Below, piece after piece: positions 7,894 through 52,539 of a stretch of DNA of 64,000 nt. This DNA comes from a virus, in the IMG/VR virus record IMGVR_UViG_3300023172_000011, positions 1 to 64,000 of that record; one strand, written 5' to 3'. The first letter of the stretch is position 1; each line of letters starts with the position of its first letter. A program made the translations under genes and the position numbers. Under the pieces are notes generated by a model. That model did not search any database. It saw only the letters and a program-made list of their open reading frames with translations, and was not told the origin of the DNA.

Positions 7894-7965
7894 TACCTTG
7901 TGGTGTAATCGGTAGCACAGCAGATTTTGGTTCTGCTAGTTGGGGTTCAAGTCCCTGCGAGGTAA
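7894..7965 (+). tRNA. tRNA-Gln (anticodon TTG)
   Basis: Acceptor TACCTTG/CGAGGTA, anticodon stem GCAGA/TCTGC with loop TTTTGGT giving TTG, T-arm GGGG-TTCAAGT-CCCT, discriminator A. It reads CAA. First of the second tRNA cluster, seven bases before tRNA-Leu. Confidence 0.9.
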
Positions 7966-7971
7966 TGTAAT

Positions 7972-8052
7972 GCCGGAGTGGTGAAATGGCAGACACGCTA
8001 GATTTAGGATCTAGTGCCGCAAGGCGTGCAGGTTCAAGTCCTGTCTCCGGTA
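7972..8052 (+). tRNA. tRNA-Leu (anticodon TAG)
   Basis: Class II tRNA of 81 nt: acceptor GCCGGAG/CTCCGGT, anticodon stem CTAGA/TCTAG with loop TTTAGGA giving TAG, variable arm with GCCGCAAGGC, T-arm GCAGG-TTCAAGT-CCTGT, discriminator A. It reads CUA and other CUN codons. Confidence 0.9.
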
Positions 8053-8053
8053 A

Positions 8054-8125
8054 TCCGAAATAGCTCAATGGTAGAGCAATCGGCTGTTAACCGATGGGTT
8101 ATAGGTTCGAGTCCTATTTTCGGAG
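8054..8125 (+). tRNA. tRNA-Asn (anticodon GTT)
   Basis: Perfect acceptor TCCGAAA/TTTCGGA with discriminator G, as usual for Asn; D-arm GCTC/GAGC; anticodon stem ATCGG/CCGAT with loop CTGTTAA; T-arm ATAGG-TTCGAGT-CCTAT. It lies one base upstream of the hairpin that begins the tmRNA locus. Confidence 0.93.
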
Positions 8126-8126
8126 C

Positions 8127-8207
8127 TTCCGGTTCGCCGGAATAAACATGTAGACGTTGTTAGTGAAACAACACAGGACGCGAGTTCGATTCTCGCCGCC
8201 TCCACCA
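8127..8207 (+). ncRNA. ssrA: Permuted tmRNA, acceptor piece
   Basis: This is the 3' (tRNA-like) part of tmRNA, encoded before the coding part. It has the conserved AAACATGTAGAC, a GTTGTT/AACAAC hairpin, GGAC, T-arm GCGAG-TTCGATT-CTCGC (8180-8196), acceptor strand CGCCTCC (8197-8203), discriminator A and an encoded CCA (8205-8207). The acceptor strand pairs with GGGGGCG at 8328-8334 of the coding piece, with a G-U at the third pair, the alanine identity element. ACATGTAGAC (8146-8155) pairs with GACTGCATGT (8364-8373) as the long P2 helix with one mismatch. A UUCG-loop hairpin TTCCGG/CCGGAA (8127-8142) precedes it; the mature 5' end may lie after that hairpin. Confidence 0.85.
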
Positions 8208-8327
8208 GAAGCACACTAGGATGTTGAATACGGTCTATGTGAGGTTCAAATCCTCCTAGATGTAACCACGTACTCAAAGCATCTAGTTGACGGACTACTT
8301 ATGACGGTAAGATAGTGTGTTTCTGAC
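8208..8327 (+). other. Intervening segment of permuted tmRNA
   Basis: About 120 bases between the acceptor CCA and the first base of the coding piece, expected to be removed by tRNA-type processing at both ends. It contains a T-arm-like hairpin GAGG-TTCAAAT-CCTC (8241-8255) and a stem CTAGGA/TCCTAG (8216-8221 with 8254-8259). No complete tRNA and no credible gene is seen here. Confidence 0.6.
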
Positions 8328-8463
8328 GGGGGCGTAATGGTATCGACTGGTTGCGTAGGTGATGACTGCATGTGCTGGTTTGTCGAAGGGCCAGCTAAAA
8401 AATCGACAGACAATAACTGCAAAACCTAGTTTTGCGTTGGCTGCTTAGGCAGTCACGGGGGGT
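8328..8463 (+). ncRNA. ssrA: Permuted tmRNA, coding piece (tag AKPSFALAA)
   Basis: The 5' part of tmRNA: GGGGGCG acceptor strand, then the hallmark TAATGGTATCGAC. An H-type pseudoknot precedes the tag: GCTGG (8374-8378) pairs with CCAGC (8391-8395) and TGTCGA (8381-8386) with TCGACA (8403-8408). The tag reading frame runs from resume codon GCA at 8419 to TAG at 8446-8448 and encodes AKPSFALAA, ending in the ALAA protease signal. The stop sits in the loop of CTGC-TTAG-GCAG. The piece releases stalled ribosomes with host SmpB and alanyl-tRNA synthetase. The exact 3' end is unknown; a terminator begins at 8464. Confidence 0.88.
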
Positions 8464-8496
8464 TGCCCGCCCTTGCTATCCAAACGGGCATTTTTT
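8464..8496 (+). terminator. Terminator of tRNA/tmRNA operon
   Basis: TGCCCG (8464-8469) pairs with CGGGCA (8485-8490), followed by six T (8491-8496). It closes the transcript carrying tRNA-Gln, Leu, Asn and both tmRNA pieces and separates it from the dCMP deaminase gene. Confidence 0.8.
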
Positions 8497-8518: not shown

Positions 8519-9043
8519 ATGGAAGAATATATTAAAATCCAAAAGGAAGCAACTAAGTGGGATAAAATTTTCTTCAGAGAAGCAATTCTTTGGAGTTTTA
8601 ACAGTCATGATAGTCAAACTAAATGTGGATGCGTCCTTGTAAAAGATAAAACTTCATTATCTACAGGATATAATGGATTCATCAGGGATATTGATGATAC
8701 TATACTACCAAGGGTTAGACCTCAAAAATATCCTTTCATGATTCACGCAGAGGCTAATGCTATTTACAATTGTTCAAGACTTGGTAGAAGTACTCTAGGA
8801 GCTACAGCATATATAACAGCAATACCATGTCTTGACTGTCTGCAAATGATATATCAATGCGGAATAAGTGAAATCAAATTCACAGATGCATCAAATCCTA
8901 AAATGGATATCTATTCTGAAAATTATTCGCAGATTTTAAGGCTAATCAAGGATAAAATATCTATAGTCTACATACCTAAAAAGTATGTTTTATTCGTTAG
9001 GGATATGGATGGAGATAAAGATGTTCAGGATCAGCAAAGATAA
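8519..9043 (+). CDS. Deoxycytidylate (dCMP) deaminase
   Basis: 174 residues. It converts dCMP to dUMP for dTTP synthesis in the phage nucleotide pool. The zinc and proton-relay motif H76-A-E78 and the PC104-x2-C107 pair are in the family order, with a further GCGC near the N-terminus (residues 35-38). The ATG at 8519 is chosen because TGGAGA precedes it at good spacing; the frame stays open upstream into the tmRNA but that extension is not coding. The end overlaps the next gene. It works with the NrdA/NrdB, MazG and dNMP kinase genes further along. Confidence 0.9.
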   Translation: MEEYIKIQKEATKWDKIFFREAILWSFNSHDSQTKCGCVLVKDKTSLSTGYNGFIRDIDDTILPRVRPQKYPFMIHAEANAIYNCSRLGRSTLGATAYITAIPCLDCLQMIYQCGISEIKFTDASNPKMDIYSENYSQILRLIKDKISIVYIPKKYVLFVRDMDGDKDVQDQQR

Positions 9044-9206
9044 GACAAAAGTTCTTGATCATGAGAATAGAGTTGTTGGATGGATTAATAATGAAAGATT
9101 TATTCAATATGGATGCGACCCGCTTTATAGGACTGGTCTAAGTCCTGCGGATCTAGAGAAGATATCAGAGCTTATGCAAAGGAATAACGTGGGAACTTTT
9201 AGATGA
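9021..9206 (+). CDS. Small hypothetical protein
   Basis: 61 residues from the ATG at 9021, with GGAG just upstream inside the end of the deaminase gene. It overlaps the HNH gene by four bases. The start MFRISKDKTKVLDHENRVVGWI looks like a small beta-rich domain. An alternative start is at 9009. No family recognised. Confidence 0.55.
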   Translation: MFRISKDKTKVLDHENRVVGWINNERFIQYGCDPLYRTGLSPADLEKISELMQRNNVGTFR

Positions 9207-9697
9207 AAACTCTAATTTTAAATGCCAATGCTCGGCCATTGTCTGTTGTATCAGGCAGAAGGGCCGTAATGTTGGATCTTAATAATTCCAATGTTACGGC
9301 TCTTTCTTATTATATTAACAGTATTACAACGATTAATGGCTCAATGCCAATTCCGGCGGTGATGATATATTCTAAGTACATTGTCATTAATAAAAAAACA
9401 GTTCCTACCAAAAGATCTATTAGACTTAGAGACAACAATAAGTGCGGCTATTGTGGAGTGAATTTATCTCCAGAAACATTTACGATAGATCATATTATTC
9501 CTGTTAGCAAGTTCCCAAATAAGGCAGCGGCAAACACTTGGGAAAATCAAGTATCATGCTGTAGAAAATGCAATACATCTAAGGGCGATAAAACCTTAGA
9601 GCAGGCACGCATGACTTTGCTAGTCAAGCCAAAACCATTTAGCAAAATGATCTTATGCGAATCCGTCCCGCATGAATGGTCCAAGTACATACAATGA
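9203..9697 (+). CDS. HNH endonuclease
   Basis: 164 residues. The C-terminal half is an HNH nuclease: C81-x2-C84, D96-H97-IIP, then an Asn-containing stretch and C120-x2-C123 with NTSKGDKTLEQA, the common bacterial and phage form. The N-terminal 70 residues (MKTLILNANARPLSVVSGRRAV) are the usual lead domain of this subfamily. It may act in DNA packaging, repair, or as a mobile nuclease; its setting as a single gene in a nucleotide-metabolism run does not decide. Ends just before the promoter-like element at 9703. Confidence 0.85.
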   Translation: MKTLILNANARPLSVVSGRRAVMLDLNNSNVTALSYYINSITTINGSMPIPAVMIYSKYIVINKKTVPTKRSIRLRDNNKCGYCGVNLSPETFTIDHIIPVSKFPNKAAANTWENQVSCCRKCNTSKGDKTLEQARMTLLVKPKPFSKMILCESVPHEWSKYIQ

Positions 9698-9702
9698 ATT
9701 TC

Positions 9703-9713
9703 ATGGCGTATAC
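9703..9713 (+). promoter_or_regulatory. Recurring ATGG(C/A)GTATAC element, copy 2
   Basis: ATGGCGTATAC in the 75-base gap between the HNH nuclease and the DUF1501 operon, 59 bases before the next start. TATACT could serve as the -10 hexamer. There is no TTGACA-like -35 at proper spacing, which suits a phage-specific sigma or an activator. Confidence 0.45.
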
Positions 9714-9772
9714 TATAAGACAGGCTTTGATCTTGTGTTTTGCCTATACAGAAAAGTTGAGGGAGACTTGCC

Positions 9773-9973
9773 ATGAAAAATTTTACACTGGGATTTCTAT
9801 TGTCTGGATGCATTTGTTTAATTAGCTATATTGTCTGGGAAAATCATAGACATGTACCTGTAATTATTAAGCAGGTTCCTGTTCCAGTTGCTGTCCCACT
9901 GCAACAATCCTCACCATTCCCACCAAACTCAAACCTCGCCTTAATTCTGGAGAAAAACAATGATAACATTTGA
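9773..9973 (+). CDS. Small putative lipoprotein
   Basis: 66 residues. The N-terminus MKNFTLGFLLSGC fits a lipobox (L-S-G-C, Cys13), followed by a hydrophobic stretch and a Pro/Val-rich region (KQVPVPVAVPLQQSSPFPP). If lipidated it would be an outer- or inner-membrane lipoprotein with an extended periplasmic stalk. Pro-rich small lipoproteins include phage outer spanins, but no partner inner spanin is obvious next to it. It overlaps the following DUF1501 gene, so a joint envelope role is possible. Confidence 0.5.
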   Translation: MKNFTLGFLLSGCICLISYIVWENHRHVPVIIKQVPVPVAVPLQQSSPFPPNSNLALILEKNNDNI

Positions 9974-11213
9974 TTTTGGCAGAAGATCTTTCTTAAAGAT
10001 TGGATCTATAAGTACAGCAATGTCAATAGCTGGATTTACAGACGCAGCCTTTCATCAGGATACAAATAGTAAGTCAGTGATCTGGATATGGCTTGGTGGA
10101 GGCCCAGCACAATTTGAAACATTCCATGCACCAACAGATACAGTTCCTGCCGAATGGCGACCTGTTGATGGATCTAATTATTGTGCATCAACTAACATTA
10201 ATCTTGGTGCCAACTGGACAGAACTTGCTAAACATACAAGTAAGTTGAATGTCGTCAATTCATTTAGTCATGGAGACTCTGCTCATCTACAGGCTACTCA
10301 CTTTATGATGACTGGACATTATAATAAAGAAAGAACACAAACCGCTATATCTAAAATGCCTTCATTTGGATCATTAGTTTCTGCTATTTACGGAGCTAAT
10401 CATCCCGCCAATGGTATGCCATGTTATGTGAAACAAGGCAAAATTGATGGTGAAGATCCAGCATGGCTTGGTGGAGCTTATAAGCCTTTTGATCCATCAG
10501 CAAAGGATAATCTCTCTCCAAGAATTGAGATGGAGAGATTTAATAATAGACGAGAACTTCTAAATAGCATTGACAGTCTTGGTCAAAAAATCAATAGTAG
10601 ATCAGCAAAATCTGTTGGATTTTATAAAGATCAAGCCTATAATGTTATATTAGGATCTGCAAAAGATGCATTTGATCTCAAGCAAGAATCTGATGACACT
10701 AGGAAAATCTATGGTTCAGAAAAAGCTAATGATATTGGCGAACAAATGATTTTAGCCAGAAGATTAGTTGAAAATGGAACCAAGTTTGTTACAATACACT
10801 ATGGCGGATGGGATATGCATAACAATATCTCAGATGGCATTAAAAAGAGAGTACCTCCAATTGATAAAGCAATCTCTGGTCTTTTACAAGATTTGTGGGA
10901 TCGTGGAATTAATGAAGAGGTATTAGTTGTTGTTACTGGAGAATTTGGAAGAACTAAGATCAATGCAACAGCAGGTCGTGACCATTGGCCTTCTATTACT
11001 CCGTTAATGATGGCTGGAGGCAAATACCAATCAGGAAGAACTATTGGCGAAGCCGATAGATCATATGTACCTAAGAGTGATAAGTTTGGACCGTTAGATT
11101 TACAGGCTACAATTTTTGACCACATGTTAATTGATGGAAGGCAGCAGCGATTTGATATGGCTGGTCGTCCAAGATATTTACTTGATGGCGAAGCTAAAAT
11201 CATTTTATCGTAG
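9960..11213 (+). CDS. Exported DUF1501 protein, first copy
   Basis: 417 residues with a twin-arginine signal (GRRSFLKIG, residues 7-15, then a hydrophobic stretch), so it is predicted to be exported folded by Tat. The rest is DUF1501, a branch of the alkaline phosphatase/sulfatase-like superfamily: ETFHAP near the N-terminus, a central GGWDMH, and the signature EFGRTKINATAGRDHWP. DUF1501 proteins are abundant in Planctomycetes and their substrates are unknown. This copy lacks the Pro in the usual EFGRTP, which the next copy keeps. It is translationally coupled to the lipoprotein upstream and lies eight bases before its paralogue. Confidence 0.85.
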   Translation: MITFDFGRRSFLKIGSISTAMSIAGFTDAAFHQDTNSKSVIWIWLGGGPAQFETFHAPTDTVPAEWRPVDGSNYCASTNINLGANWTELAKHTSKLNVVNSFSHGDSAHLQATHFMMTGHYNKERTQTAISKMPSFGSLVSAIYGANHPANGMPCYVKQGKIDGEDPAWLGGAYKPFDPSAKDNLSPRIEMERFNNRRELLNSIDSLGQKINSRSAKSVGFYKDQAYNVILGSAKDAFDLKQESDDTRKIYGSEKANDIGEQMILARRLVENGTKFVTIHYGGWDMHNNISDGIKKRVPPIDKAISGLLQDLWDRGINEEVLVVVTGEFGRTKINATAGRDHWPSITPLMMAGGKYQSGRTIGEADRSYVPKSDKFGPLDLQATIFDHMLIDGRQQRFDMAGRPRYLLDGEAKIILS

Positions 11214-13413: not shown

Positions 13414-13843
13414 CTAAAAAACTGGATGAAGAATGAACTTTCTTCAATGGAATAAATACCGTCTGCACATCTAATTTGTCGCAGACGGTTTTTTCTTGGA
13501 TATTGTAATTGTCTGGCGGTCTATCTCCGCTATTAAAGAACATAAACTTATAATTCTTGTTGTATTCAAAAATTGTTTCTTCTACTATTTTAGCAATAGT
13601 ATTCGAAACGGAGCGATCCTTGTCAATCGACACATATACTGCATCAATAGATTTTATATTTTTCATAATATCATATCTATGATTCTCGTCCATAAATTTA
13701 TTAGAGCCTTTTATCTGCACTTGAAGATCATTATTTACAATACAATTTAAAAAATCACACTGTTTTTTGGCGGCATTAATATATTCTAAATGACCACGAT
13801 GTAGCGGATTAAAATATCCAGAAACTATACCAATTCTGTACAT
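13391..13843 (-). CDS. HxGH nucleotidyltransferase (sugar activation)
   Basis: 150 residues of the cytidylyltransferase-like fold, with H15-R-G-H18 near the N-terminus after a GIVSGYFNP loop. This is the family of glycerol-3-phosphate cytidylyltransferase and of the HldE C-terminal domain that makes ADP-heptose from heptose 1-phosphate. Next to a heptokinase-like enzyme and a HAD phosphatase, a role in activating a heptose-like sugar phosphate is plausible. It is last in the operon, its first base overlaps the HAD stop, and its 3' end carries the terminator hairpin of the opposing operon. Confidence 0.75.
   Translation of the reverse strand: MYRIGIVSGYFNPLHRGHLEYINAAKKQCDFLNCIVNNDLQVQIKGSNKFMDENHRYDIMKNIKSIDAVYVSIDKDRSVSNTIAKIVEETIFEYNKNYKFMFFNSGDRPPDNYNIQEKTVCDKLDVQTVFIPLKKVHSSSSFLATLGHVS
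13459..13494 (+). terminator. Terminator of plus-strand operon inside reverse gene
   Basis: CCGTCTGC (13459-13466) pairs with GCAGACGG (13481-13488), then six T. It terminates plus-strand transcription from the DUF1501 operon yet lies within the coding part of the convergent nucleotidyltransferase gene. No T-run follows the hairpin in the reverse direction, so it should not stop the glycan operon. Confidence 0.75.
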
Positions 13844-14220
13844 TAAACTTCTACTCCAGATATTCCCAAGTCTCTTTCTATTGGATAAGCATATGCTGTT
13901 ATTGTGCCGTCAGGCTTTTTATCATTCACAAGAACTCTCGGACCAACAGGAAGTCCCATGACTAGCTGATCATAAAATATACCGGCTTCGCTTAACTGAC
14001 GCTCTAGCGAGCTTCTAACACCTTCAGGTCTAGCGGTAGTAAGTACGATATAATAGTCTTTAGCACGCCATTCTAAAAATTTTTCATGCACTCCATAAAT
14101 AACTTCTAGTTGCTCAGTTATCATTCTGCATAAATTTTTCTTATGAATGACAAGAGTTCCATCAATATCTAAAAAAATAGTTTTTCTTCTAATTCTTTCT
14201 TGTGTTTCTGTATTACTCAT
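13843..14220 (-). CDS. HAD-family sugar-phosphate phosphatase
   Basis: 125 residues of the HAD superfamily without a cap domain. Motif I is FLDIDGTL with D18 and D20, motif II LTTARPEG, and motif III VLVNDKKP. The small size fits the D,D-heptose bisphosphate phosphatase-like and capsule-cluster HAD proteins. It probably removes a phosphate from the kinase product before nucleotide transfer. It overlaps the kinase gene by eight bases upstream and the nucleotidyltransferase by one downstream. Confidence 0.75.
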   Translation of the reverse strand: MSNTETQERIRRKTIFLDIDGTLVIHKKNLCRMITEQLEVIYGVHEKFLEWRAKDYYIVLTTARPEGVRSSLERQLSEAGIFYDQLVMGLPVGPRVLVNDKKPDGTITAYAYPIERDLGISGVEV

Positions 14221-15187
14221 TTATAATTTTAGATCCTTCAAAGTCAATGTTAAAATCCACGTAATTTTGTTTATATTTTCTCCTAAACTCTTTCTTATTC
14301 ACTTTATCAGATAATATGCCAAATATGAAACCTGCACCGCCAGATCCTAATAATTTTCCGCCAATCATACCATCTTCCGATAACTGTGAATAAAAATTGT
14401 TTATGCGGTCATTACTTATTAAGTTAGATATCTGTTTTTTATAGTTCCAAGATTTGTCGAGGAGCGATGCAATATTTTCAATGTTAGCCTCTTGAAATTG
14501 TTCATAAGCCAAATGTGATAATTCTTTAATCTTGTGCTTATGCTCTTGGGAAGAATTAATATTGTAAGATTTAGCAATTTTAAAAGAATGCCTTGTGCTG
14601 CCCGTATAAATTAGGATTGATCTTTCTAAGAAATTTTTCAAAAAATGCTCACAGATAGGCAATGGCTTGACATGAAAAAAGCCATTTTTTTCAATAGATA
14701 TTGAGTTAATACCTCCATATGCAGACCAAATTTGATCCTGAATACCTCCAGTCTCCATCAGTATATTCCGTTCAACATTTATTGCTTGTTGGGATAGTTC
14801 TTTTTTAGTGACATATTTATTACTCAGTCTATGCAAGCAGTTTAATAAGCCAACAACAAATGCAGACGAAGATCCAGTTCCAGTTTGAGCCGGAAGATCC
14901 GCATTATGAGATAGCTCTATGCCATATCTGATAGATAAAAAGTCTAGACAGCCCCTAACTCCGTCATGGTTGATTTTTGAATTATTATTTACAATTTCAG
15001 TTTTTGAATATGATAATTTACTTTTGTAATCAAATATGGATGGAGTTTTTCTTACAGAAAGGTAGCAGTATTTATTAATAGCGAATCCGATTAATAAGGA
15101 TTCGTGCTTAGAGAAATACGATTCATAATCGGTAGATCCTCCAAATAAAGATATTCTAAAAGGCGTTCTACTGATAATCATAATCAA
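14213..15187 (-). CDS. GHMP kinase, heptokinase (HddA)-like
   Basis: 324 residues of the GHMP kinase family, closest in motifs to D-glycero-alpha-D-manno-heptose 7-phosphate kinase HddA: RTPFRISLFGGSTDY at the N-terminus, the phosphate loop LPAQTGTGSSSAF (98-110), METGGIQDQIWSAYGG, and GGKLLGSGGAGFIFG near the C-terminus. It would phosphorylate C1 of a heptose or similar sugar phosphate. The start may be at either of two ATGs (15187 or 15181). The downstream HAD phosphatase and nucleotidyltransferase complete an activation route. Confidence 0.8.
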   Translation of the reverse strand: MIMIISRTPFRISLFGGSTDYESYFSKHESLLIGFAINKYCYLSVRKTPSIFDYKSKLSYSKTEIVNNNSKINHDGVRGCLDFLSIRYGIELSHNADLPAQTGTGSSSAFVVGLLNCLHRLSNKYVTKKELSQQAINVERNILMETGGIQDQIWSAYGGINSISIEKNGFFHVKPLPICEHFLKNFLERSILIYTGSTRHSFKIAKSYNINSSQEHKHKIKELSHLAYEQFQEANIENIASLLDKSWNYKKQISNLISNDRINNFYSQLSEDGMIGGKLLGSGGAGFIFGILSDKVNKKEFRRKYKQNYVDFNIDFEGSKIINE

Positions 15188-16140
15188 TAATTTCTACAAC
15201 GAAGTTCGTCAGACTTTGACATTAATCTATAAAAGTTGACCATTTGATTAACGCCAAACCTCAAACTAACTGATGGTTTCCATCCTAAAGAGTACAGCTT
15301 TTGGCTACTAACTAAATAATCTCTTTTATCTGGATCGGTACGATTATCTTGAGTTACAAAATCTGAGCCAACAATTGAACATATTTCCTTAACTAAATTT
15401 TCTTTAGTTGTATTTAAAGAATCATTTCCTAAATTAAAAACTCCATGTATGTCTTCACTCTTTTTATATGTTATTTTATCAATAATAAAGTTAAAAGCTG
15501 AAACTATGTCATCTACATGAATATAGTTTCTCCTGAAGTGACCATCAAACAAGAATATTCTTCCAGTTTCTAATGCTGTTTTAGTTAAATTATTAACAAG
15601 AAGATCCGTTCTGGGGCGATAAGACCATCCAAATACTGTAGCTAAACGAAAACAGGTAGACTTTTCATAAGTCATCAATAAATTTTCAGAATCTTGTTTT
15701 GTTTTTGCGTAAAGTGATAAGGGATTAGATGGAGTTTCTTCTGTACAAATTTCTTCGCCGGTTGAGCCATAACCAGAGTTTGTATTTGGATAAATTATAT
15801 GTTGATCTTTAAGATACGGCAATAGTTTAGAAAACCATTCAAAGTTGATTTTATATGTTAGCTCTGGATATTTGTCACATAGCGGAGCACCAACCAGTGC
15901 GGCAAGTGGAATAATAATATCTGCATTTTTTATAGCATCTTTTAAATTTTCAGACCAACTGGTAACGTCTTCAACAAAAAATTTTGATACACCAATAGAA
16001 TTGCACGCCACTTTACTAACAAGCGTCCCCTGATCATAAAAAAGATTATCAAAACCTATAACATTGTGACCGCGTTTTACTAAAAAATCGAATAATTTAC
16101 TTCCAATATATCCAGCGGCACCAGTAATAACTATTTTCAT
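15184..16140 (-). CDS. NAD-dependent sugar epimerase/dehydratase (SDR)
   Basis: 318 residues, extended short-chain dehydrogenase fold. The NAD loop is G7-AAG-YIG13 and the catalytic pair is Y144-AKTK148, with the Ser/Thr partner in the NTNSGYGSTGE stretch before it. The family includes UDP-galactose 4-epimerase, sugar 4,6-dehydratases and heptose epimerases; the exact reaction cannot be read from motifs. It overlaps the kinase gene by four bases and probably works on the same sugar nucleotide. Confidence 0.8.
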   Translation of the reverse strand: MKIVITGAAGYIGSKLFDFLVKRGHNVIGFDNLFYDQGTLVSKVACNSIGVSKFFVEDVTSWSENLKDAIKNADIIIPLAALVGAPLCDKYPELTYKINFEWFSKLLPYLKDQHIIYPNTNSGYGSTGEEICTEETPSNPLSLYAKTKQDSENLLMTYEKSTCFRLATVFGWSYRPRTDLLVNNLTKTALETGRIFLFDGHFRRNYIHVDDIVSAFNFIIDKITYKKSEDIHGVFNLGNDSLNTTKENLVKEICSIVGSDFVTQDNRTDPDKRDYLVSSQKLYSLGWKPSVSLRFGVNQMVNFYRLMSKSDELRCRNY

Positions 16141-16170
16141 ATTAGTTCTCTATTATTGCATGTAAAAAAA

Positions 16171-16686
16171 TTAGATATAAGAATAGATAATTTTAAATAT
16201 TTCACATTCTGCTTTTTTCACAGACTCAAGCCATTGATTGACAGAATTGGAGCCAATATAATCTGTAATATATTTATGACAAACAAAATTAACACCAAAA
16301 TTATGACAGACATGAGCAATAGCAAAACTCTCCATATCTACGAGATCGGGTTTATCTAAATATAGATTTTCATTATCAACAAAAGAATCAGATGAACCAA
16401 TAGTTAAACCATCTTTATTAAAGACATATCTTTCATTATTAAATGAATCATCTCCATCTAGATTTACAAAAGTACCGCACTTATGCATTCCAGAATAAGC
16501 CTCATTAAAACTTCCAGCGGTTCCTACATTAACAATCAAATCAAGATTATTACCCCATTGAGTGCATAGTTTAGTAGCCCACATAGCGGCGTTCGTTTTG
16601 CCAATTCCTGTAAAAATAACACTGTCTTCGACTATAGACGGACAATTTGGTAGCTCAAGTTCACTCGCTATTAAAAAAAATTTCAT
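16171..16686 (-). CDS. Nucleoside phosphorylase/nucleosidase-like protein
   Basis: 171 residues, shorter than most family members (about 230). It has IFTGIGKTNAA, VGTAGSFN, DMESFAIA and a terminal YITD, which match the MTA/SAH nucleosidase group in its binding-loop and catalytic Glu/Asp regions. In a glycan operon it might hydrolyse S-adenosylhomocysteine or 5'-deoxyadenosine left by the methyltransferase and radical SAM enzyme, or act on a sugar nucleotide. It overlaps the aminotransferase-like gene by four bases. Confidence 0.7.
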   Translation of the reverse strand: MKFFLIASELELPNCPSIVEDSVIFTGIGKTNAAMWATKLCTQWGNNLDLIVNVGTAGSFNEAYSGMHKCGTFVNLDGDDSFNNERYVFNKDGLTIGSSDSFVDNENLYLDKPDLVDMESFAIAHVCHNFGVNFVCHKYITDYIGSNSVNQWLESVKKAECEIFKIIYSYI

Positions 16687-17816
16687 TCAAAAAATTCCTT
16701 CATAACTCTACAAATTCTTTGAATGTTTTCTTCATTCATATATCTATGAGTACCAATATGCAGTCCATTGTTCCCACACCACACAGCATTATTATATCCC
16801 TGTGGTTCGGATAAAACGTCTTTTAATGATGCATGACTGCCACAAAAACCAAAATTTCTTTTCCAGTGAATGTTATTAGAGGTCATCAGTTTTTCTAGTT
16901 CTCTACATGATTTTTTAGAATCTGGCTTTACTGTAATGCTAAAACCATGAGGCATAACTTCCATATAATCAGGCTGACTACTAAACCAAGCTAAATCTGC
17001 ATATTGTTCAGAAAACTTTACAAGTTCAGTCCATATCGCTTTTCTTTCGGAAATATTTTGTTGAAATTCCTCAATAGCACCAAGAGCTAAAGATGCACAA
17101 AGGTCAGTTGTTTTAAAATTACTCCCAAATCTTATATGGTCAAAATACGCTGAATTAGGATGTCTGCCGTGAGATCTAATACTAATGAGCAGATCACGAA
17201 GATTTTCATCATCTGTATAAATACAAGAACCTTCACCGGCCTGAACAAGATGAGCCTGAAAAAATGAAGAACAACCTCCTATAGCATACTTATGGCTAAA
17301 CTCTCCATTTATTTTACTACCATAGTTCTCACATGCGTCTTCAAACAATACTAAGTCATATTTTTTAGCAATAGTTCTAATCGCATCCATCTCAGATGGC
17401 CTACCCATAGTGCCTACAGCATAGATCGCAACGACATCATCATCAACAGCATCCTCAATTAATTCCTCATTTATATTTAAAGTTTCCGGCTTGATGTCCA
17501 CCCATTTAGGAATCAATCCACCAGACACAATACCTGTAGTATTGGCTATAAAGGCTAAAGCTGGACATATTACTTTGCTTTTATTCCTAATAACAGGACG
17601 ATTACATATTTCGGGCAATGCCATAGTCATTGCAGCTATTGACGAAGTGCCGCTACTTGTTGCTACTGCGTATTTTGTTCCCATCAATTCAGCAAATTTT
17701 TCTTCAAGTAGTTTAGTTTTTGGACCCATCGAGGCCCAATTAGTATCTAAACAATCTTGAACATGCTTTTTTGCCGAATTGTTAATTCTCAATTCACCGA
17801 ATTCTATTCTTTTCAT
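16683..17816 (-). CDS. DegT-family PLP enzyme with His for Lys, 3-dehydratase-like
   Basis: 377 residues of the DegT/DnrJ/EryC1/StrS fold. FED160-ACENYGS holds the Asp that contacts the PLP nitrogen. In the lysine motif, where aminotransferases read SF-x3-K-x4-GEG, this reads SFFQAHLVQAGEG, with His189 in place of Lys. The same change marks the PLP/PMP-dependent sugar 3-dehydratases ColD and RfbH (E1). I therefore expect C3 deoxygenation of a 4-keto sugar nucleotide rather than transamination. RfbH needs an iron-sulfur reductase and ColD does not; no such reductase gene is in the operon, favouring a ColD-like reaction. Confidence 0.78.
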   Translation of the reverse strand: MKRIEFGELRINNSAKKHVQDCLDTNWASMGPKTKLLEEKFAELMGTKYAVATSSGTSSIAAMTMALPEICNRPVIRNKSKVICPALAFIANTTGIVSGGLIPKWVDIKPETLNINEELIEDAVDDDVVAIYAVGTMGRPSEMDAIRTIAKKYDLVLFEDACENYGSKINGEFSHKYAIGGCSSFFQAHLVQAGEGSCIYTDDENLRDLLISIRSHGRHPNSAYFDHIRFGSNFKTTDLCASLALGAIEEFQQNISERKAIWTELVKFSEQYADLAWFSSQPDYMEVMPHGFSITVKPDSKKSCRELEKLMTSNNIHWKRNFGFCGSHASLKDVLSEPQGYNNAVWCGNNGLHIGTHRYMNEENIQRICRVMKEFFE

Positions 17817-18702
17817 TTTTAATAAACCTTATAATTTTTTCTTTTGATGGAGGAAGATTGTCTAAGTGCTTTGCAAATCCTGAAGATCTTTCTTCCAGAC
17901 CCATAGTTGATACCTTAGCTGATGATTCTAGCATTAGTTTTTGAGCAAGTGTTGAAGCTATTCCATCTGGAAAATCATCATCGAGAACAAGTCCGCGACC
18001 AGCAATATCAAGTGCTCTCGCCCAATTCTTATTTACATCAAATGGCTTTAAAACTTTTTGATGATAAACAGCAACCTTAATACCTTCTTTGAATAATTCC
18101 CTAGAAGCTTCCATTGCTGCAAATCGGCAAATAGAAATAGGAAACAATACAAAGTCAGGTTCATAAAAGTCTACATCTTCAAGTTCCTCTGTATTATTAT
18201 ATGCCCCTCGATGTTCAGAAACATAAAAAACATCGTCATCTTTCATGAAATCCTGATAACATTGCTCGTATTCTCCGGGAGTCATTGGCGAGTAGATTTT
18301 AACACCGGGCATTCTATGATAAAGAGAATGATGGGAGCTACCAGCTACTGGACCAATTGCCCCCTCCATAGCAATACTCCTCACAAAAATTGGGCACGGA
18401 ATATTCCACATGTCCTTACTTTTACAGGCATAGTTTAATATACTAACGCAATTATACCAGTTAAAACCTTGATATCTTATGATATACATAGGTCTTCTTC
18501 CTGATAGACCAGCACCTGTAACAATTGCACCTCCTGCTACATCAGCCATAGAAAGTTCAACCATACCATCTTCTTCATACATTTCAGGTAGGGTTCCACC
18601 AACCCACCCAACGGCGGTTAGACACTGACCAAAAGCCAAACCTCCACCGTCTAGATGATTAGCTACGGTATTTTTTATAGTGTCTCTAAGCGTGATTGCC
18701 AT
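17794..18702 (-). CDS. TPP-dependent E1 beta-type subunit
   Basis: 302 residues resembling the beta subunit of pyruvate/acetoin dehydrogenase E1 or a split transketolase C-half: an N-terminal Pyr-binding region (GLAFGQCLTAVGWVGGTLPEM, ELSMADVAGGAIVTGAGL-x-GRRP) with a SHHSLYHRMPGVKIYSP loop, and a C-terminal transketolase-C domain (VAVYHQKVLKPFD). It pairs with the next gene. In the absence of E2/E3 genes the pair most likely transfers a two-carbon unit instead of feeding a dehydrogenase complex. It overlaps the PLP enzyme gene by 23 bases. Confidence 0.78.
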   Translation of the reverse strand: MAITLRDTIKNTVANHLDGGGLAFGQCLTAVGWVGGTLPEMYEEDGMVELSMADVAGGAIVTGAGLSGRRPMYIIRYQGFNWYNCVSILNYACKSKDMWNIPCPIFVRSIAMEGAIGPVAGSSHHSLYHRMPGVKIYSPMTPGEYEQCYQDFMKDDDVFYVSEHRGAYNNTEELEDVDFYEPDFVLFPISICRFAAMEASRELFKEGIKVAVYHQKVLKPFDVNKNWARALDIAGRGLVLDDDFPDGIASTLAQKLMLESSAKVSTMGLEERSSGFAKHLDNLPPSKEKIIRFIKNEKNRIR

Positions 18703-19469
18703 AGTTTTTCAAACCTTTCAATGTCTTCCGATAAATCTTCATGCTTTAATAAATCTCTTGTTTCACCATCTGTTCCAGCACCTGCGTGCCAAAACATTCT
18801 GACGGTATTGATATTAAGTAATTTTGGAGCAGAAAAGTCCCATCCACCGAGGCAATTAAGTATGTCTGTAGGATTGTCAGTTATATTATAAGATTCAACG
18901 TTCATTGCTTGAGAGACATTACAAATATCCCAAGATCTTCTGATTTTCTTTTCTGTTAAAATGGAAAGGTTGTTGTCCTCAACCACAAACAGAATTGGAA
19001 GATTTTTTGTTGCTGCCCACCCGTATGCGGCTAGAGCATAGTCTTCCTCGCCTGCGGCATCCCCTACGAATACAACTGTGGGTTCGTTGGTGGCATAACA
19101 ATACCCAACTCCAATAGGAACATTGCTTCCCATCAACCCATCGTGACCAAACATCTTAATTTCTGGACTATGTATAGATGCGGAACCTCCCATACCTTTC
19201 GCACATCCAGTTTCCAAACCAAGAAGTTCATCAATAAGCTGTGTAGGATCTCCACCAAATGACAAATAAGTAGAATGACCTCTATGTTGACCAAAGATAG
19301 CGGGTGTAATTCCTCGATCTTGAAAATATGTACTAATAGTCGCCGGGATCATTTCTTGACCAGCGGATAAGTAGACAGGGATTTTAATATTGCCAGCTTG
19401 TATTTGACTAAATGTGACAACCTCAAATGCTCTACACATTTTCGCCTTGTTCATGATTTCATTTAGCAT
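18675..19469 (-). CDS. TPP-dependent E1 alpha-type subunit
   Basis: 264 residues matching E1 alpha subunits and transketolase N-halves: GQHRGHSTYLSFG, CAKGMGGSASIHSP, and the thiamine diphosphate motif GDA with NN about 27 residues later (VGDAAGEED to VEDNN). Length is below the roughly 320-360 of dehydrogenase E1 alpha. With the beta-type neighbour it should form a heterotetramer that generates a TPP-bound carbanion. Together with a keto-sugar-forming dehydratase, this suggests branched-sugar synthesis, an inference. Confidence 0.78.
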   Translation of the reverse strand: MLNEIMNKAKMCRAFEVVTFSQIQAGNIKIPVYLSAGQEMIPATISTYFQDRGITPAIFGQHRGHSTYLSFGGDPTQLIDELLGLETGCAKGMGGSASIHSPEIKMFGHDGLMGSNVPIGVGYCYATNEPTVVFVGDAAGEEDYALAAYGWAATKNLPILFVVEDNNLSILTEKKIRRSWDICNVSQAMNVESYNITDNPTDILNCLGGWDFSAPKLLNINTVRMFWHAGAGTDGETRDLLKHEDLSEDIERFEKLWQSRLETL

Positions 19470-20062
19470 GTTATAGCCAACCCCTCTATTTTCTCAGAGA
19501 TTTCGAATTTTTCAAGCAACCGCTTCATGTTATCATAGCTAATAATATCTCCGGGTCCAGCGACACTATTACCTTCATAAGAGATAGATCCATTTGTTAT
19601 CATGAAGTTATCAAAGTCCAGTTTTTTATTTAGTTCCGCAAACCAGACATAAGACACGCCTACAAAATCACCTTTCATATCCAGAGGTGTTACATCCACA
19701 CCTTCCTCTCCCATTTTAATAGATCCCGCCCTGCCATAAGAATCCTCTAGTCTCACAATATCTTCTTTGTCTACTGGAGTTTCTATTTCAAGAAGTTGTA
19801 GTAAGTGAGGGGTCATTGACTTTGTCTGATGAAACACACCATGACGAATCATGATTTTTTCACCATGAAACAACTTGTGATCACTACCAAGAAAAGAAAC
19901 CTTGGCAGCACCGTCTAAAACAACAAGACCAGTCTTCTTATTCGGATGGCTATGCAGAGATGTGTTTTGATAAGAATTAATAAACAAGTGCCATATAGCG
20001 ACATCGTCATTCTTATACAAAAGATACTCATAACCCCAAGGTTTTTTTACAGATTCAACCAT
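19463..20062 (-). CDS. Cupin protein, phosphomannose-isomerase-like
   Basis: 199 residues with a double-stranded beta-helix. It begins with KPWGYEYLLY, as in type II phosphomannose isomerase cupins, then has LHSHPNKKTGLVVLDG and HGVFHQT as the two metal-binding cupin motifs. The C-terminal 80 residues (SYEGNSVAGPGDIISYDN) form a second cupin-like part. It may isomerise or epimerise a sugar phosphate or organise one. It overlaps both neighbours slightly. Confidence 0.65.
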   Translation of the reverse strand: MVESVKKPWGYEYLLYKNDDVAIWHLFINSYQNTSLHSHPNKKTGLVVLDGAAKVSFLGSDHKLFHGEKIMIRHGVFHQTKSMTPHLLQLLEIETPVDKEDIVRLEDSYGRAGSIKMGEEGVDVTPLDMKGDFVGVSYVWFAELNKKLDFDNFMITNGSISYEGNSVAGPGDIISYDNMKRLLEKFEISEKIEGLAITC

Positions 20063-20585
20063 TGAATTTTTCCATTGCTACTCGCATCCATTCACCCATA
20101 TCATCATAGTGGGCACATGACACAAGATTACCGTCTTCAACAACACCCCTTGAATACTCAGCACCAGCATTACGAATGTCTGGCTCAATTGAGTAATATC
20201 CTGAGCATTTTCTATCACGAAGAACATCTGCTGTTATTAAAAGCTGACCTCCATTACAAATACACATCGTAGGTTTGTCAAGCTCAAACCACCTCTTAAC
20301 GAAATTTACAGCATTAGGCTCAAGACGTAACTTCTCAAGTGCTTTGACACCTCCGGGAATACAAAGCAAATCATAAGATTCTACATCAGAAACAAGCAAA
20401 TCACTTGTAGTATAGTCTGAAACTACATGAGCACCCAAAATACCGAATATTCTTTCCTTTGTCCCATTAGCACAAACTTCTACATGATACCCATGCTCCT
20501 GTAAAGCATAAAATGGATATATGACTTCATGATCTTGAAATTTTTCAAACGTTAAAATTAATGCTTTTTTAGTTGTGTTACTCAT
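20055..20585 (-). CDS. DJ-1/PfpI family protein
   Basis: 176 residues, flavodoxin-like DJ-1/PfpI fold. The nucleophile elbow is MCIC110-NGGQLL, with an IPGGV loop before it and a SCAHYDD stretch near the end. Members include glyoxalases, chaperones and small-molecule hydrolases. A DJ-1 protein within a sugar operon is unusual; it might detoxify a reactive keto- or dicarbonyl sugar intermediate. It overlaps the radical SAM gene by four bases. Confidence 0.7.
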   Translation of the reverse strand: MSNTTKKALILTFEKFQDHEVIYPFYALQEHGYHVEVCANGTKERIFGILGAHVVSDYTTSDLLVSDVESYDLLCIPGGVKALEKLRLEPNAVNFVKRWFELDKPTMCICNGGQLLITADVLRDRKCSGYYSIEPDIRNAGAEYSRGVVEDGNLVSCAHYDDMGEWMRVAMEKFNG

Positions 20586-22057
20586 TGCAGGATCTTTCTT
20601 TGTAATTTAATACTGGTCATTCTATGGATATTTTTACAGGCTTCTTCACCGTATTTATTTCTCATTCTATTCAGCACACCCGGATTCGTAAAATATGCGT
20701 CAAAGAAATAATCTCGAAACGCTAATACTTCTGCCGAGGTGAGAAATTCAGTACTATCTGGTATATGATTATAGCTTAGAAATCCAAACTCGCTATACTT
20801 TTCTGGCAAATATCTACCCTCTTTCTTAGCATTGAGATAAAGAGGACTTCCGGGTAATGCGGTAGAACAATACACGTTCATATTAGCTAAATCAAGTTCA
20901 AACGCAAGATTCATAGTTTGTTGCATAGTTTCATAATTATCTGTTGGCAGTCCAACAATGAAATTACCTCCCACACCAATATCATGTTTTACAATTTCAT
21001 CAACAACTTCTCTAATGTTGACCTCTTTGAATCTACCCTTATCAATTTCTTGTCGAACGGTTTGATTGGCAGATTCAATTCCTAAAGCTAAATGACGAAC
21101 GCCTGCTTTTCTAAGGGTCTCAAGATATTTAGGTTTTGCTGTGTCTACTCTACTATATGCCCAAATATTAAAATCTAATCCACGATCAATGATTAATTCA
21201 CATAAAGTCATGAAATGCTTGGGACGATAGACAAACATTTCGTCGGCAATCTTAAGATGCTTAACACCCTTATCCGCTAGATACTCCAGTTGCTTTATCG
21301 TAAATTCTGGAGACCAGTATCTGAATACATTGAAGGAATCAGAAGCTAAATTAAAGTCATTAGAAGTTCGATTGATTGAGTTAATCATACAAAACGAACA
21401 TTTAGCAAAACACCCCAAACTTGTATAAATACTTGCAAAGGGAGATGTATTACCTTTAAAGTTAGTATGCCAAGTGCTAGTTCTATAGTTGTCCAGACAT
21501 GGCATTAAGTCATAAGCTACGCCGGGAAGGTCTTGCTCTAATAGATCTTGAGGAACAATTCTTTCTGGTGGATTGAGTTTTATTTCTCCATTATCTCTAT
21601 AGGCTATTCCATTAACCCCGCTGATGTCTTTCAGATCTGTTTTTAAAAGATTCTTAAGAGCATAAACACCTTCGTTAGTAAATGCAATGTCTATTTCTGG
21701 GTGCTTCTCAAGAGTCTCTAGAGGTAGAGAATTTACGTGCGGTCCTACAAAAGCAATCTTTCTGTGGGCAATAATATTTGAGGCATAGGTTGCACCTTCC
21801 ATAGCAGCAGTGGATGCGTTGGGGTTTTGCCCCGTCACCACAAACAATACAAGATCAGGATCAATTTGATCCACATCATCAATGAATTTAGACTCAGAAG
21901 GTCTTGTTATCTCCATGTCATATATCAGAACATTATGTTCTTTTCTAACAGCATTGGCTAAAAGTCCCGCCCAAATATTTGGTTCTCTAGCAGCAAAGTC
22001 AGTTTTAAGATCTTGATACAACCCGGCTGAGCTGGGACATACAATCAATAAATTCAT
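20582..22057 (-). CDS. B12-binding radical SAM enzyme
   Basis: 491 residues. The first 150 resemble the cobalamin-binding domain (LIVCPSSAG, VTGQNPNAS, IAFVGPHVNSLP). The radical SAM core starts at about 205 with C216-x3-C220-x2-C223 for the 4Fe-4S cluster, and continues with typical core strands (HLALGIESANQTVRQEIDKG, GVGGNFIVGLPTD). This class performs methylations and rearrangements at unreactive carbons, so C-methylation or another radical step on the sugar is plausible. It is flanked by the DJ-1 and RmlC-like genes with four-base overlaps. Confidence 0.85.
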   Translation of the reverse strand: MNLLIVCPSSAGLYQDLKTDFAAREPNIWAGLLANAVRKEHNVLIYDMEITRPSESKFIDDVDQIDPDLVLFVVTGQNPNASTAAMEGATYASNIIAHRKIAFVGPHVNSLPLETLEKHPEIDIAFTNEGVYALKNLLKTDLKDISGVNGIAYRDNGEIKLNPPERIVPQDLLEQDLPGVAYDLMPCLDNYRTSTWHTNFKGNTSPFASIYTSLGCFAKCSFCMINSINRTSNDFNLASDSFNVFRYWSPEFTIKQLEYLADKGVKHLKIADEMFVYRPKHFMTLCELIIDRGLDFNIWAYSRVDTAKPKYLETLRKAGVRHLALGIESANQTVRQEIDKGRFKEVNIREVVDEIVKHDIGVGGNFIVGLPTDNYETMQQTMNLAFELDLANMNVYCSTALPGSPLYLNAKKEGRYLPEKYSEFGFLSYNHIPDSTEFLTSAEVLAFRDYFFDAYFTNPGVLNRMRNKYGEEACKNIHRMTSIKLQRKILQ

Positions 22058-22554
22058 GAGAATATACCTTCTTCTTTTTGCGACAAAAAGTCTCGTGCCG
22101 TAGCATCTCTATGAGACAAAATCACATAGTTAGTATCACACCATTCAGCATCTATAGTTGGATCATCGTATTTTACAGTCCATTGATCTTTTGGAGAAGT
22201 ATAATACTCACTCCATTTATAGCTCATTATACATTGATCTGATAGACATTGATGAGCATTTAACTGTCCGGGTTCAACAAGAATAGAATCAACTTCTTTA
22301 TTATTGGCATCCAGTAAATACCGGGTGGTTTTTTCTGTTTCTATATCAAAAGTCACAAACTGCATTATTCCGTAAATACAGGTAACTAATTTATAGGTTT
22401 TATCATCTCCATGAAATCCACGAATTGTTCCGTATCTAGATTGAGATATTTTATCTTGAACAAACTGAATATCATAATCGTAATCTGCAAATGTGGTGTA
22501 AAGAGAACCTCTATTGTCTATGTGTTTGATTTCTGTTATTATTTTTGTTGACAT
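22054..22554 (-). CDS. RmlC-like sugar epimerase
   Basis: 166 residues from the ATG at 22554, chosen for the GGAG site just upstream. It matches dTDP-4-dehydrorhamnose 3,5-epimerase proteins: HIDNRGSLYTTF, the RGFHGDDKTYKLVTCIYG strand with the catalytic His region, QLNAHQCLSDQC, and a YKWSEYY stretch. It would epimerise C3 and/or C5 of a 4-keto sugar nucleotide made elsewhere in the operon or by the host. Length is near the usual 180. Confidence 0.78.
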   Translation of the reverse strand: MSTKIITEIKHIDNRGSLYTTFADYDYDIQFVQDKISQSRYGTIRGFHGDDKTYKLVTCIYGIMQFVTFDIETEKTTRYLLDANNKEVDSILVEPGQLNAHQCLSDQCIMSYKWSEYYTSPKDQWTVKYDDPTIDAEWCDTNYVILSHRDATARDFLSQKEEGIFS

Positions 22555-22580
22555 TGTAAACTCCAAGCTTGTTATTAGAG

Positions 22581-23234
22581 CTAAGATATATTATTAATAA
22601 ATTCATTTATCTTCATTATATCACGATTCAAACATCTATTATCATATCTATTATAATGGCCTACTTGGCTACAAGACATTCCATAGTCAAATATAGATAT
22701 TGGAACATCTTCATACTCAGCTAGGTTGGAGTTGAATATGATTTTTGAAAAAGCTATATCAGCACCCGGACCAGATACTTCCGAAGGCATATAAAAACCT
22801 AAAGCATTAAAAAGAATTCTACTTATTAAAGGGTAACAAGCAAACCTATGTTTTAAATGATCTTCCCAGTCAGCTTTAGCATTTCCAATAGCCCAATTTT
22901 CACTACATATTCCATAAAATAACTTGTGTTTATGTTTGAGTAAAAGACTTTGATAATCACCAGCATCTACAACTTCTACATCATCATTTAATGATAGTAT
23001 AAAATCTCCATTACATTCTTTTGCTATCGGATTTATGTATCCTGAATGTCTATTCTTTTGTCTTGAGAATTCAAAGATATTTGCATTATGAGATAGTGCT
23101 ATTTTTTTAGTATTATCATCATCTGAATCATATCCTACGCAAATTTCAACATCTGTCAAATATTCCTTTATAGAAGTGAGGCATCTATCAAAGCTATCAT
23201 GCCTATCTCTACTAACAATTATTACAGATAACAT
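22581..23234 (-). CDS. Family 2-like glycosyltransferase
   Basis: 217 residues, GT-A fold. MLSVIIVSRDRHDSFDRCLTSI is the typical nucleotide-binding start, followed by GYDSDDDN and a FILSLNDDVEVV stretch as the D-x-D-like metal site near residue 98. It lacks transmembrane segments and acts in the cytoplasm, adding one sugar to a growing glycan. Donor and acceptor are not readable. Confidence 0.7.
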   Translation of the reverse strand: MLSVIIVSRDRHDSFDRCLTSIKEYLTDVEICVGYDSDDDNTKKIALSHNANIFEFSRQKNRHSGYINPIAKECNGDFILSLNDDVEVVDAGDYQSLLLKHKHKLFYGICSENWAIGNAKADWEDHLKHRFACYPLISRILFNALGFYMPSEVSGPGADIAFSKIIFNSNLAEYEDVPISIFDYGMSCSQVGHYNRYDNRCLNRDIMKINEFINNIS

Positions 23235-23266
23235 ATTATATCTCTTTTTTAATCGTGAAGTTGGTG

Positions 23267-24187
23267 CTATATAGACTCATAATTTATATCATTGTAATCT
23301 AACTCTGTTTTATTTGAGTAAAAATATTTCTTTATATTATCAATCAATTCCTGCTTGTATTTTGGCTTACCTTTATCGTAAGCGTCTTGATTATGCACCA
23401 TTATATTTCCACATTCTTCATAACCCAAACCGCAAGAAATACAATTTGCATCTGTTATAAAATCCAAGGCATTTCTATTATATAGTAAATTATTCCAAGG
23501 GTTTCTGTAAACAGGTGAGAAATGAGGTTGGCTAGATGAAGGTCCATCAACCGCTTTATTATGGTGTGCCATTACATCCTTGACAATTACCCATTCTTTT
23601 TCGACACATGCATTTAAAAATGAAAATGTACTTTCTGTACAATACGCAGCAAAAACATCTGGTATTATCAAGCCAAAGGTATCAAGTATATCACGACTAA
23701 AAATTTGTGAATGTAAATTTATTCCTTTACCTAAAGGAATCTTAAAATCTTGATTTACAATCTGAGCCGTACTAGAGTTTTGTTTAAAGCCAAGAGGTTC
23801 AAACCCAGTATCTATATCTACTTGTAGAGAAACCATTGAGTTTGTAGACATACGTTCTTGCATCTGACTCAAAGATGTTTTATCTGTAAGTTCCACCCCG
23901 GAGTCTAAAAAGAAAAATCCATCATATTTGTTGTCTAAATCTTTTATTAATACCGTCTTATTAAAAGTTACATTTACAATGTATCTTTCTGGATAATGTA
24001 TTATTCCTAGTGATTCTCCAAATCTACTTTTTAATGTTTCAAGACATGGTCGTGAATTCATACATGAAGATACTACTATGTCCGTTTCATAATCTTGATT
24101 AAATATACTTTCTATACATCTGGAATACCATTCTGTACGATCTTGATTTATACCACAGGTGTTATATACGGTTAATATTTTATTCAC
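23267..24187 (-). CDS. Glycosyltransferase-like protein (GT-A)
   Basis: 306 residues starting at a GTG that overlaps the upstream stop. The start MNKILTVYNTCGINQDRTEWYSRCIESIFNQDY has the layout of GT2 enzymes, and GFFFLDSGVELT near residue 95 is a diverged D-x-D region. The C-terminal part has several Cys (ISCGLGYEECGN). The assignment rests on fold-level pattern only. Confidence 0.55.
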   Translation of the reverse strand: MNKILTVYNTCGINQDRTEWYSRCIESIFNQDYETDIVVSSCMNSRPCLETLKSRFGESLGIIHYPERYIVNVTFNKTVLIKDLDNKYDGFFFLDSGVELTDKTSLSQMQERMSTNSMVSLQVDIDTGFEPLGFKQNSSTAQIVNQDFKIPLGKGINLHSQIFSRDILDTFGLIIPDVFAAYCTESTFSFLNACVEKEWVIVKDVMAHHNKAVDGPSSSQPHFSPVYRNPWNNLLYNRNALDFITDANCISCGLGYEECGNIMVHNQDAYDKGKPKYKQELIDNIKKYFYSNKTELDYNDINYESI

Positions 24188-24798
24188 TTTGTTTTCTCCA
24201 AACAGGAAAAGTAAATACCTTCATGATATCCATCCCCTGCGGGCATGGTGTATTCACACAAGATGTTTAATTTTAAGTCTACTATAGATGATTGTACAGC
24301 ATCAATAACTTCTGGTGACTTTTCTTTATCATAATCATCGACTATGTATATAAACTGGTCTTCCATGTTATGTATATACTTTGTTAGAGCATTGTATTGA
24401 TCCTGCCAACCGTGAGGTCCATCAAAGGTGTATACATTAAATTTTTCATCACCAAGTAAGTTTTCTACCCAGCAGTCACTGTCGATAATTTTTACATCAT
24501 TGGTTTCAATAATCGGTCCTATCCTAGACCAAAATGCTAATTTAGATTCACCATTATGCCAGTTTTGTGACCAATCATCTATACCCACTGCACGAATATT
24601 GTTTTGAAATAAAGCTGATGAAAAAATCCCGCCACGATATAAACCTATCTCAAGATACTTTATACCTTTGTTTGAACATATATTATTTACTATATTTCTA
24701 ATATAATGTCCAGTCAAATCATCGTTATTCTTCCTTCCTCCATCTATTAGTTTAGATGATGACTGATCGACAATCGCATTATCTAGTATTTTTTTCAT
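24184..24798 (-). CDS. Class I SAM-dependent methyltransferase-like protein
   Basis: 204 residues. KYLEIGLYRGGIFSSAL is the SAM-binding glycine loop (diverged from ExGxGxG), followed by an acidic strand end AVGIDDW and FNVYTFDGPHGW, the pattern of the Methyltransf_24 group common in polysaccharide clusters. It likely methylates a sugar hydroxyl. It overlaps both neighbouring glycosyltransferase genes. Confidence 0.65.
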   Translation of the reverse strand: MKKILDNAIVDQSSSKLIDGGRKNNDDLTGHYIRNIVNNICSNKGIKYLEIGLYRGGIFSSALFQNNIRAVGIDDWSQNWHNGESKLAFWSRIGPIIETNDVKIIDSDCWVENLLGDEKFNVYTFDGPHGWQDQYNALTKYIHNMEDQFIYIVDDYDKEKSPEVIDAVQSSIVDLKLNILCEYTMPAGDGYHEGIYFSCLEKTK

Positions 24799-52502: not shown

Positions 52503-52539
52503 TTGAACATAAAGAAAAAAAATAACAAGGTCAATAAAG

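Follow-up and report, generated by a model that had tools for sequence, protein, structure and literature searches.

Two-piece tmRNAs in bacteria and phages

Permuted tmRNA genes are rare. According to PMC11915505, they occur in three bacterial lineages and in mitochondria, where one gene is described as re-permuted; the same source describes one permuted tmRNA whose intervening sequence holds a tRNA-Ala gene and another with a repetitive element there. Among phages, 53 with two-piece tmRNA calls by ARAGORN, 50 of them marine or aquatic, were reported in 2022, including the phages Melnitz and Mosig (PMC9004378).

An earlier note, made from the letters alone, had proposed such a gene in an uncultivated virus of IMG/VR (IMGVR_UViG_3300023172_000011). 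The record has 118,642 bases, and its first 64,000 nucleotides are the window analysed here. The note had called the gene unusual in a phage. It is indeed uncommon, but with 53 phages already carrying two-piece calls it is not new. The suggestion of the note that the RNA may replace or retag the host system also calls for more caution. The window tmRNA is not the first two-piece tmRNA of a phage, and the novelty lies in the group of phages around it.

The virus record and the neighbourhood of the gene

The record carries rIIA, rIIB, ribonucleotide reductase subunits and the terminase large subunit, which confirms that it belongs to a phage. That the contig is bacterial or chimeric is scarcely credible: the contig of one relative was assigned to a SAR202 MAG, but rIIA, rIIB, the terminase large subunit and phage-type genes stand together on this record, and related loci were found in many virus contigs. 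The tmRNA gene follows directly on three tRNA genes and is followed by a dCMP deaminase gene (PF00383, 2e-19), which is its neighbour in many relatives too. The CCA is encoded in the tmRNA and is absent from the tRNA genes of the window.

Several other genes of the window were recorded. A free-standing HNH endonuclease gene lies at 9203-9697, shortly downstream of the tmRNA and the deaminase. The DNA polymerase III alpha subunit is split into two ORFs (49997-54099), one with the PHP and NTPase domains and the other with the finger domain, and between them sits an RNase_T-type exonuclease ORF (51807-52502). On the minus strand, 13843-27557 holds a run of genes resembling sugar metabolism: a GHMP kinase, an NAD-dependent epimerase, a DegT aminotransferase and a transketolase-like domain, together with a radical SAM/B12-binding protein and a possible glycosyltransferase.

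Identification and anatomy of the tmRNA gene

A complete permuted tmRNA gene occupies 8127-8496 of the window. Cmscan matched it to RF04321 (tmRNA_permuted) over the full model length with 87.6 bits and an E value of 2e-15 (curated cut-off 47), and to RF01849 (alpha_tmRNA) with 60.9 bits (curated cut-off 50) over model positions 40-275 of 355 only. A covariance search without a tmRNA score was one of the outcomes that the earlier note had named as refuting its reading; both models scored over their cut-offs, and the reading was not refuted. ARAGORN called a permuted tmRNA (tmRNA*) with the tag AKPSFALAA, and none of 100 shuffles folded as well as the precursor (z -3.45). The letter-for-letter identical gene is present in three further IMG/VR contigs. 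Two curated covariance models, ARAGORN, covariation in related phages and synteny together identify it as a circularly permuted tmRNA within an array of phage tRNA genes. The features, all on the + strand, are as follows.

7894..8126, +, tRNA-Gln, tRNA-Leu and tRNA-Asn genes, directly upstream of the tmRNA (ARAGORN)
8127..8142, +, H1 hairpin UUCCGG-UUCG-CCGGAA, 5' end of the acceptor piece (direct reading)
8146..8176, +, 5' strands of the P2 helices: 8146-8153, 8157-8162, 8169-8172 and 8174-8176 (covariation)
8180..8196, +, T-arm GCGAG-UUCGAUU-CUCGC (direct reading, Rfam match, covariation)
8197..8207, +, acceptor 3' strand CGCCTCC (8197-8203), A73 (8204) and encoded CCA (8205-8207), end of the acceptor piece
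8208..8327, +, intervening sequence of 120 nt, predicted to be removed (fold z -3.71)
8243..8253, +, apparent tRNA T-arm-like remnant GGTTCAAATCC, inside the spacer (tRNA T-arm consensus)
8328..8334, +, acceptor 5' strand GGGGGCG, start of the mature coding piece
8335..8373, +, D-loop region and 3' strands of P2 (Rfam match, covariation)
8374..8408, +, PK1, GCUGG/CCAGC and UGUCGA/UCGACA (helices 6 and 7)
8419..8448, +, tag reading frame GCA...TAG, AKPSFALAA, stop included (ARAGORN)
8439..8454, +, stop-codon hairpin (pairs in 7/7 aligned phage tmRNAs despite changed sequence)
8465..8496, +, 3' element GCCCG/CGGGC, then a T-run (helix 8, 100% paired)
8519..9043, +, dCMP deaminase gene, directly downstream of the tmRNA

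The order of the pieces is as the earlier note had read it, with the acceptor half (8127-8207) encoded ahead of the coding half (8328-8496). The acceptor strands, which it had placed more than 120 bases apart, have a gap of 120 nt between CCA and G1 (8208-8327), and they pair at all seven positions (8197-8203/8328-8334), including the G3-U70 mark for alanine. The stop of the tag frame does lie within a hairpin. The pieces are linked by P2, in which 8146-8153 pairs with 8366-8373, 8157-8162 with 8360-8365 and 8169-8176 with 8347-8353, and these helices show compensatory changes in relatives. Hairpins equivalent to H1, altered in sequence, are found in five relatives.

As a correction, the gene reaches to about 8496, and its 3' element is the last pseudoknot and/or a terminator. 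The idea that this pseudoknot is a relic of an earlier permutation was rejected, because standard tmRNAs can have a comparable PK2.

Covariation in related phages

Seven tmRNAs of related phages were aligned over their mature pieces and 49 proposed pairs were counted. Across the alignment 97.1% of the cells pair and 16 of the 49 pairs are changed on both sides; the percentage is somewhat favoured because the structure was proposed from these same sequences, while the two-sided changes are not. None of 500 shuffles matched any measure of pairing, and when the partners were slid by 1-3 columns pairing fell to 29-44%. Compensatory changes are located in P2, the T-stem, the acceptor stem, both PK1 helices and the stem of the 3' pseudoknot. 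In P2 (helices 1-3) 95-98% of cells are paired; the T-stem (helix 4) is paired at 100% with both-side changes at three pairs, and PK1 helices 6 and 7 have three such pairs each. The acceptor U-G (G3-U70) is invariant in all seven sequences. The tag frame, stop hairpin, G3-U70 and PK1 are retained in relatives at 20-25% sequence difference.

The spacer between the two pieces

An outer helix of 11 bp (8208-8218/8313-8323) prolongs the acceptor stem into the spacer, and was equalled in 2 of 5000 shuffles. Inside, GGTTCAAATCC fits the T-arm motif GGTTCRANYCC, which also arose in 2 of 5000 shuffles; elsewhere on the + strand of the window the motif occurs seven times, 6 of the 7 within tRNA genes. 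By its sequence, this stretch is apparently a tRNA remnant. A whole tRNA hidden in the spacer, ordinary or permuted, was rejected and only the T-arm-like remnant is kept. Cmscan at E values up to 10 found nothing besides the tmRNA itself. ARAGORN at default settings found nothing in the spacer, single or doubled, or in 19 permuted joins, and with lowered thresholds gave only calls that had no consistent anticodon. A search for the origin of the spacer gave no convincing match among phages, and its T-arm stretch occurs solely in near-identical contigs.

Spacers of the relatives, measured from the discriminator A to G1, range from 5 to 612. The distance is 5 in L092, 12-13 in most, and 17, 19-20, 48, 70 and 71 in others; the longest are 123 (the window, CCA plus 120), 127 (L143) and 612 (L132). 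The relative L146/L160 has the CCA and a comparable spacer stem. In L143, whose tag AKPSFALAA is that of the window, the spacer contains two direct repeats with AAAGTTGGGTCAGGGTTCCC. The permuted phage tmRNAs L092 and L158 have spacers that are very short (5 nt in L092), a GGCAGTA T-loop and a closed acceptor end.

The 612-nt spacer belongs to a permuted tmRNA on the reverse strand of IMGVR_UViG_3300040810_000833 (L132, about 9310-10170). It holds an ORF of 183 codons with matches to endonuclease/HNH families of phages (phrog_3322, 8e-23; phrog_3118 HNH, 6e-9) and none in a Pfam search. The stop codon of this ORF falls within the coding piece of the tmRNA. The parts of the tmRNA itself are intact, and its tag is AGRNVAMAA. 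A spacer that is discarded in processing would suit homing endonucleases as a safe site.

Related phages and their tags

Relatives were gathered by using rIIA, rIIB, the deaminase and tmRNA patterns as queries, and permuted tmRNAs were found on more than 20 related virus contigs. In nearly all of these the tag lies at the same place, has 9 residues and ends in (L/M)(A/V)A, as ALAA, AMAA or similar; the tags differ between phages (AKPSFALAA, GVENYAMAA, VEENFALAA, ADESLALAA and others). Blastn against the tmRNAs of isolated phages gave no direct DNA similarity.

A D-loop pattern searched in a bacterial collection had its sole match in a virus contig that had been assigned to a SAR202 MAG, and tmRNA matches elsewhere in that MAG have the standard order. 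Such a match is too weak a basis for assigning a host. The SAR202 MAG OSU_TB57 (L119, L120, L123) includes two phage-like contigs with rIIB, one with a permuted and one with a standard-order tmRNA, and a third tmRNA besides with the tag GENKLALAA. The phage-like contigs of OSU_TB57 give a weak hint at a host.

Both gene orders in one group

Two relatives of the rIIA/rIIB group from different metagenomes, G010 and G011 (L163/L165), carry a tmRNA of ordinary order upstream of the dCMP deaminase gene. It scores 107.7 bits with RF00023, and its tag VEENFALAA is identical to that of the permuted relative L095, with which its two pieces are 76% identical. Another homologue of this type, L120, lies on a contig that carries rIIB and was assigned to a SAR202 MAG. 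Misassembly is unlikely, since G010 matches G011 and has a linker homologous to that of L120.

A third relative of the rIIA/rIIB group, G015 (L164), has a different tmRNA of ordinary order (RF00023, 61.9 bits; tag AKSFAVAA). It retains 7/7 acceptor pairs with the G-U, and folded as a single RNA it shows the acceptor stem, P2 and the T-arm (z -3.15). Its identity with the permuted tmRNAs is at most 63-64%, and kinship is unsupported in the tmRNA tree. The G010-type tmRNA is clearly homologous to the permuted phage tmRNAs, and that of G015 probably so.

In the rIIB tree, G010/G011 fall among permuted carriers in a supported clade (96/98), and G015 falls within the clade of the window (98/95), which makes a minimum of two order changes. 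In the tmRNA tree, the G010-type pair (100/100) lies inside a 17-row clade (96/98) of otherwise permuted phage tmRNAs. The AU test did not reject a tree in which the permuted phage tmRNAs form a single clade that excludes the standard ones (p 0.23), so the tmRNA tree alone leaves the direction of the switch unsettled; forcing all standard forms together came close to rejection (p 0.065). The tmRNA of G010/G011 stands at the deaminase and outside the tRNA array, which is its place in the nearest relatives, so it may have been brought in, already switched, on a cassette from another phage.

It is well supported, by the G010 type, that both gene orders exist in one homologous phage family; standard-order homologues of permuted tmRNAs mean that the order switched inside one phage tmRNA family. 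We lean slightly towards a wider reading, in which the tmRNA order of the group is plastic, at least one switch probably went from permuted to standard, and the spacer tolerates insertions such as the tRNA remnant of the window and the endonuclease gene of L132. If close members of one phage family do have both orders, the mechanism and direction of permutation could be studied directly, and it would follow that phages keep a ribosome-rescue RNA of their own over a broad group.

Proposed function and processing

The anatomy, pairing, conservation and tag frame of the window tmRNA are established by the observations above, and the gene very probably encodes a functional phage-borne permuted tmRNA. 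The tmRNA is likely made on a single shared transcript with the three upstream tRNA genes. RNase P would cut at 8327/8328, and 3' trimming would end at the encoded CCA (8207), freeing the 120-nt spacer, whose structure is computed. Because the spacer is long and has no conserved sequence, this processing is unproven. The two pieces are held together by the acceptor stem and P2, as the covariation shows.

From established tmRNA biology, G3-U70 should lead to charging by the host alanyl-tRNA synthetase, and host SmpB should bring the tmRNA to stalled ribosomes. SmpB (PF01668) was not found in the 118.6-kb record, which is possibly incomplete, and so it would need to be supplied by the host. AKPSFALAA would be added to stalled chains, and its C-terminal LAA should direct them to ClpXP-type proteases. 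The likeliest benefit would be continued ribosome recycling in the late phase of infection, once the host no longer makes RNA and broken mRNAs build up.

Effects specific to the tag and a role as decoy are less likely than ribosome recycling. The phage tag might redirect or spare stalled proteins and so alter proteolysis in favour of the phage; this is a variant of the functional tmRNA and not its opposite. Tags that are uniformly short and still vary between phages would fit it, but the endings are nearly all of the LAA/MAA type, which host proteases recognise, and we regard it as unlikely.

A decoy RNA, which would block trans-translation in the host by binding its SmpB or alanyl-tRNA synthetase, has a parallel in mycobacteriophage DS6A, for which PMC11915505 and PMC4131195 report an inhibitory tmRNA consisting of the tRNA-like domain only. 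For such a role the tRNA-like part alone would suffice, so the compensatory changes that preserve the tag frame, PK1 and the stop hairpin speak against it, and we consider it very improbable here.

Still harder to sustain is a decaying, now functionless gene acquired from an alphaproteobacterial or other host. The apparent tRNA remnant in the spacer and the alpha_tmRNA match to just part of its model could be taken as decay, but all functional elements are intact and covary across the seven aligned relatives, the 97% pairing retained argues against a dead gene, and permuted tmRNAs recur in the many related phage contigs.

Comparison with known tmRNA systems

A literature search, with most subscription journals outside its reach, found neither an order switch nor an endonuclease-bearing spacer, and the accessible part of PMC11915505 has no mention of an endonuclease gene in a tmRNA spacer as in L132. 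Compared with the tRNA-Ala case described there, the spacer of the window holds only a T-arm-like piece.

Among isolated phages, Pelagibacter phage Mosig EXVC030M (MT647606) has the same permuted order and encoded CCA. An 11-bp stem opens its spacer as well, the CCA being followed by UAAACACAUUA...UAAUGUGUUUA and then G1; its tag also has 9 residues (GEDNFALAA), and RF04321 and RF01849 are both over cut-off. It differs in having about 62% identity to the window in both pieces, a much shorter spacer and other neighbours. The OM43 phage Melnitz and the 53 phages of PMC9004378 share a phage-borne, mostly marine or aquatic two-piece tmRNA; in Melnitz a glutamine riboswitch is linked to the tmRNA gene, whereas Rfam found none in the window.

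The alphaproteobacterial two-piece tmRNA (RF01849) has the same order of pieces, 5' hairpin, P2, PK1 and tag position. The window tmRNA differs from it in reaching only 60.9 bits over positions 40-275 of 355, and in its shorter tag and 120-nt spacer. The standard one-piece tmRNA (RF00023) agrees with that of the window in mature structure and function and differs in gene order, and exactly this standard order is found in the relatives G010/G011 and G015.
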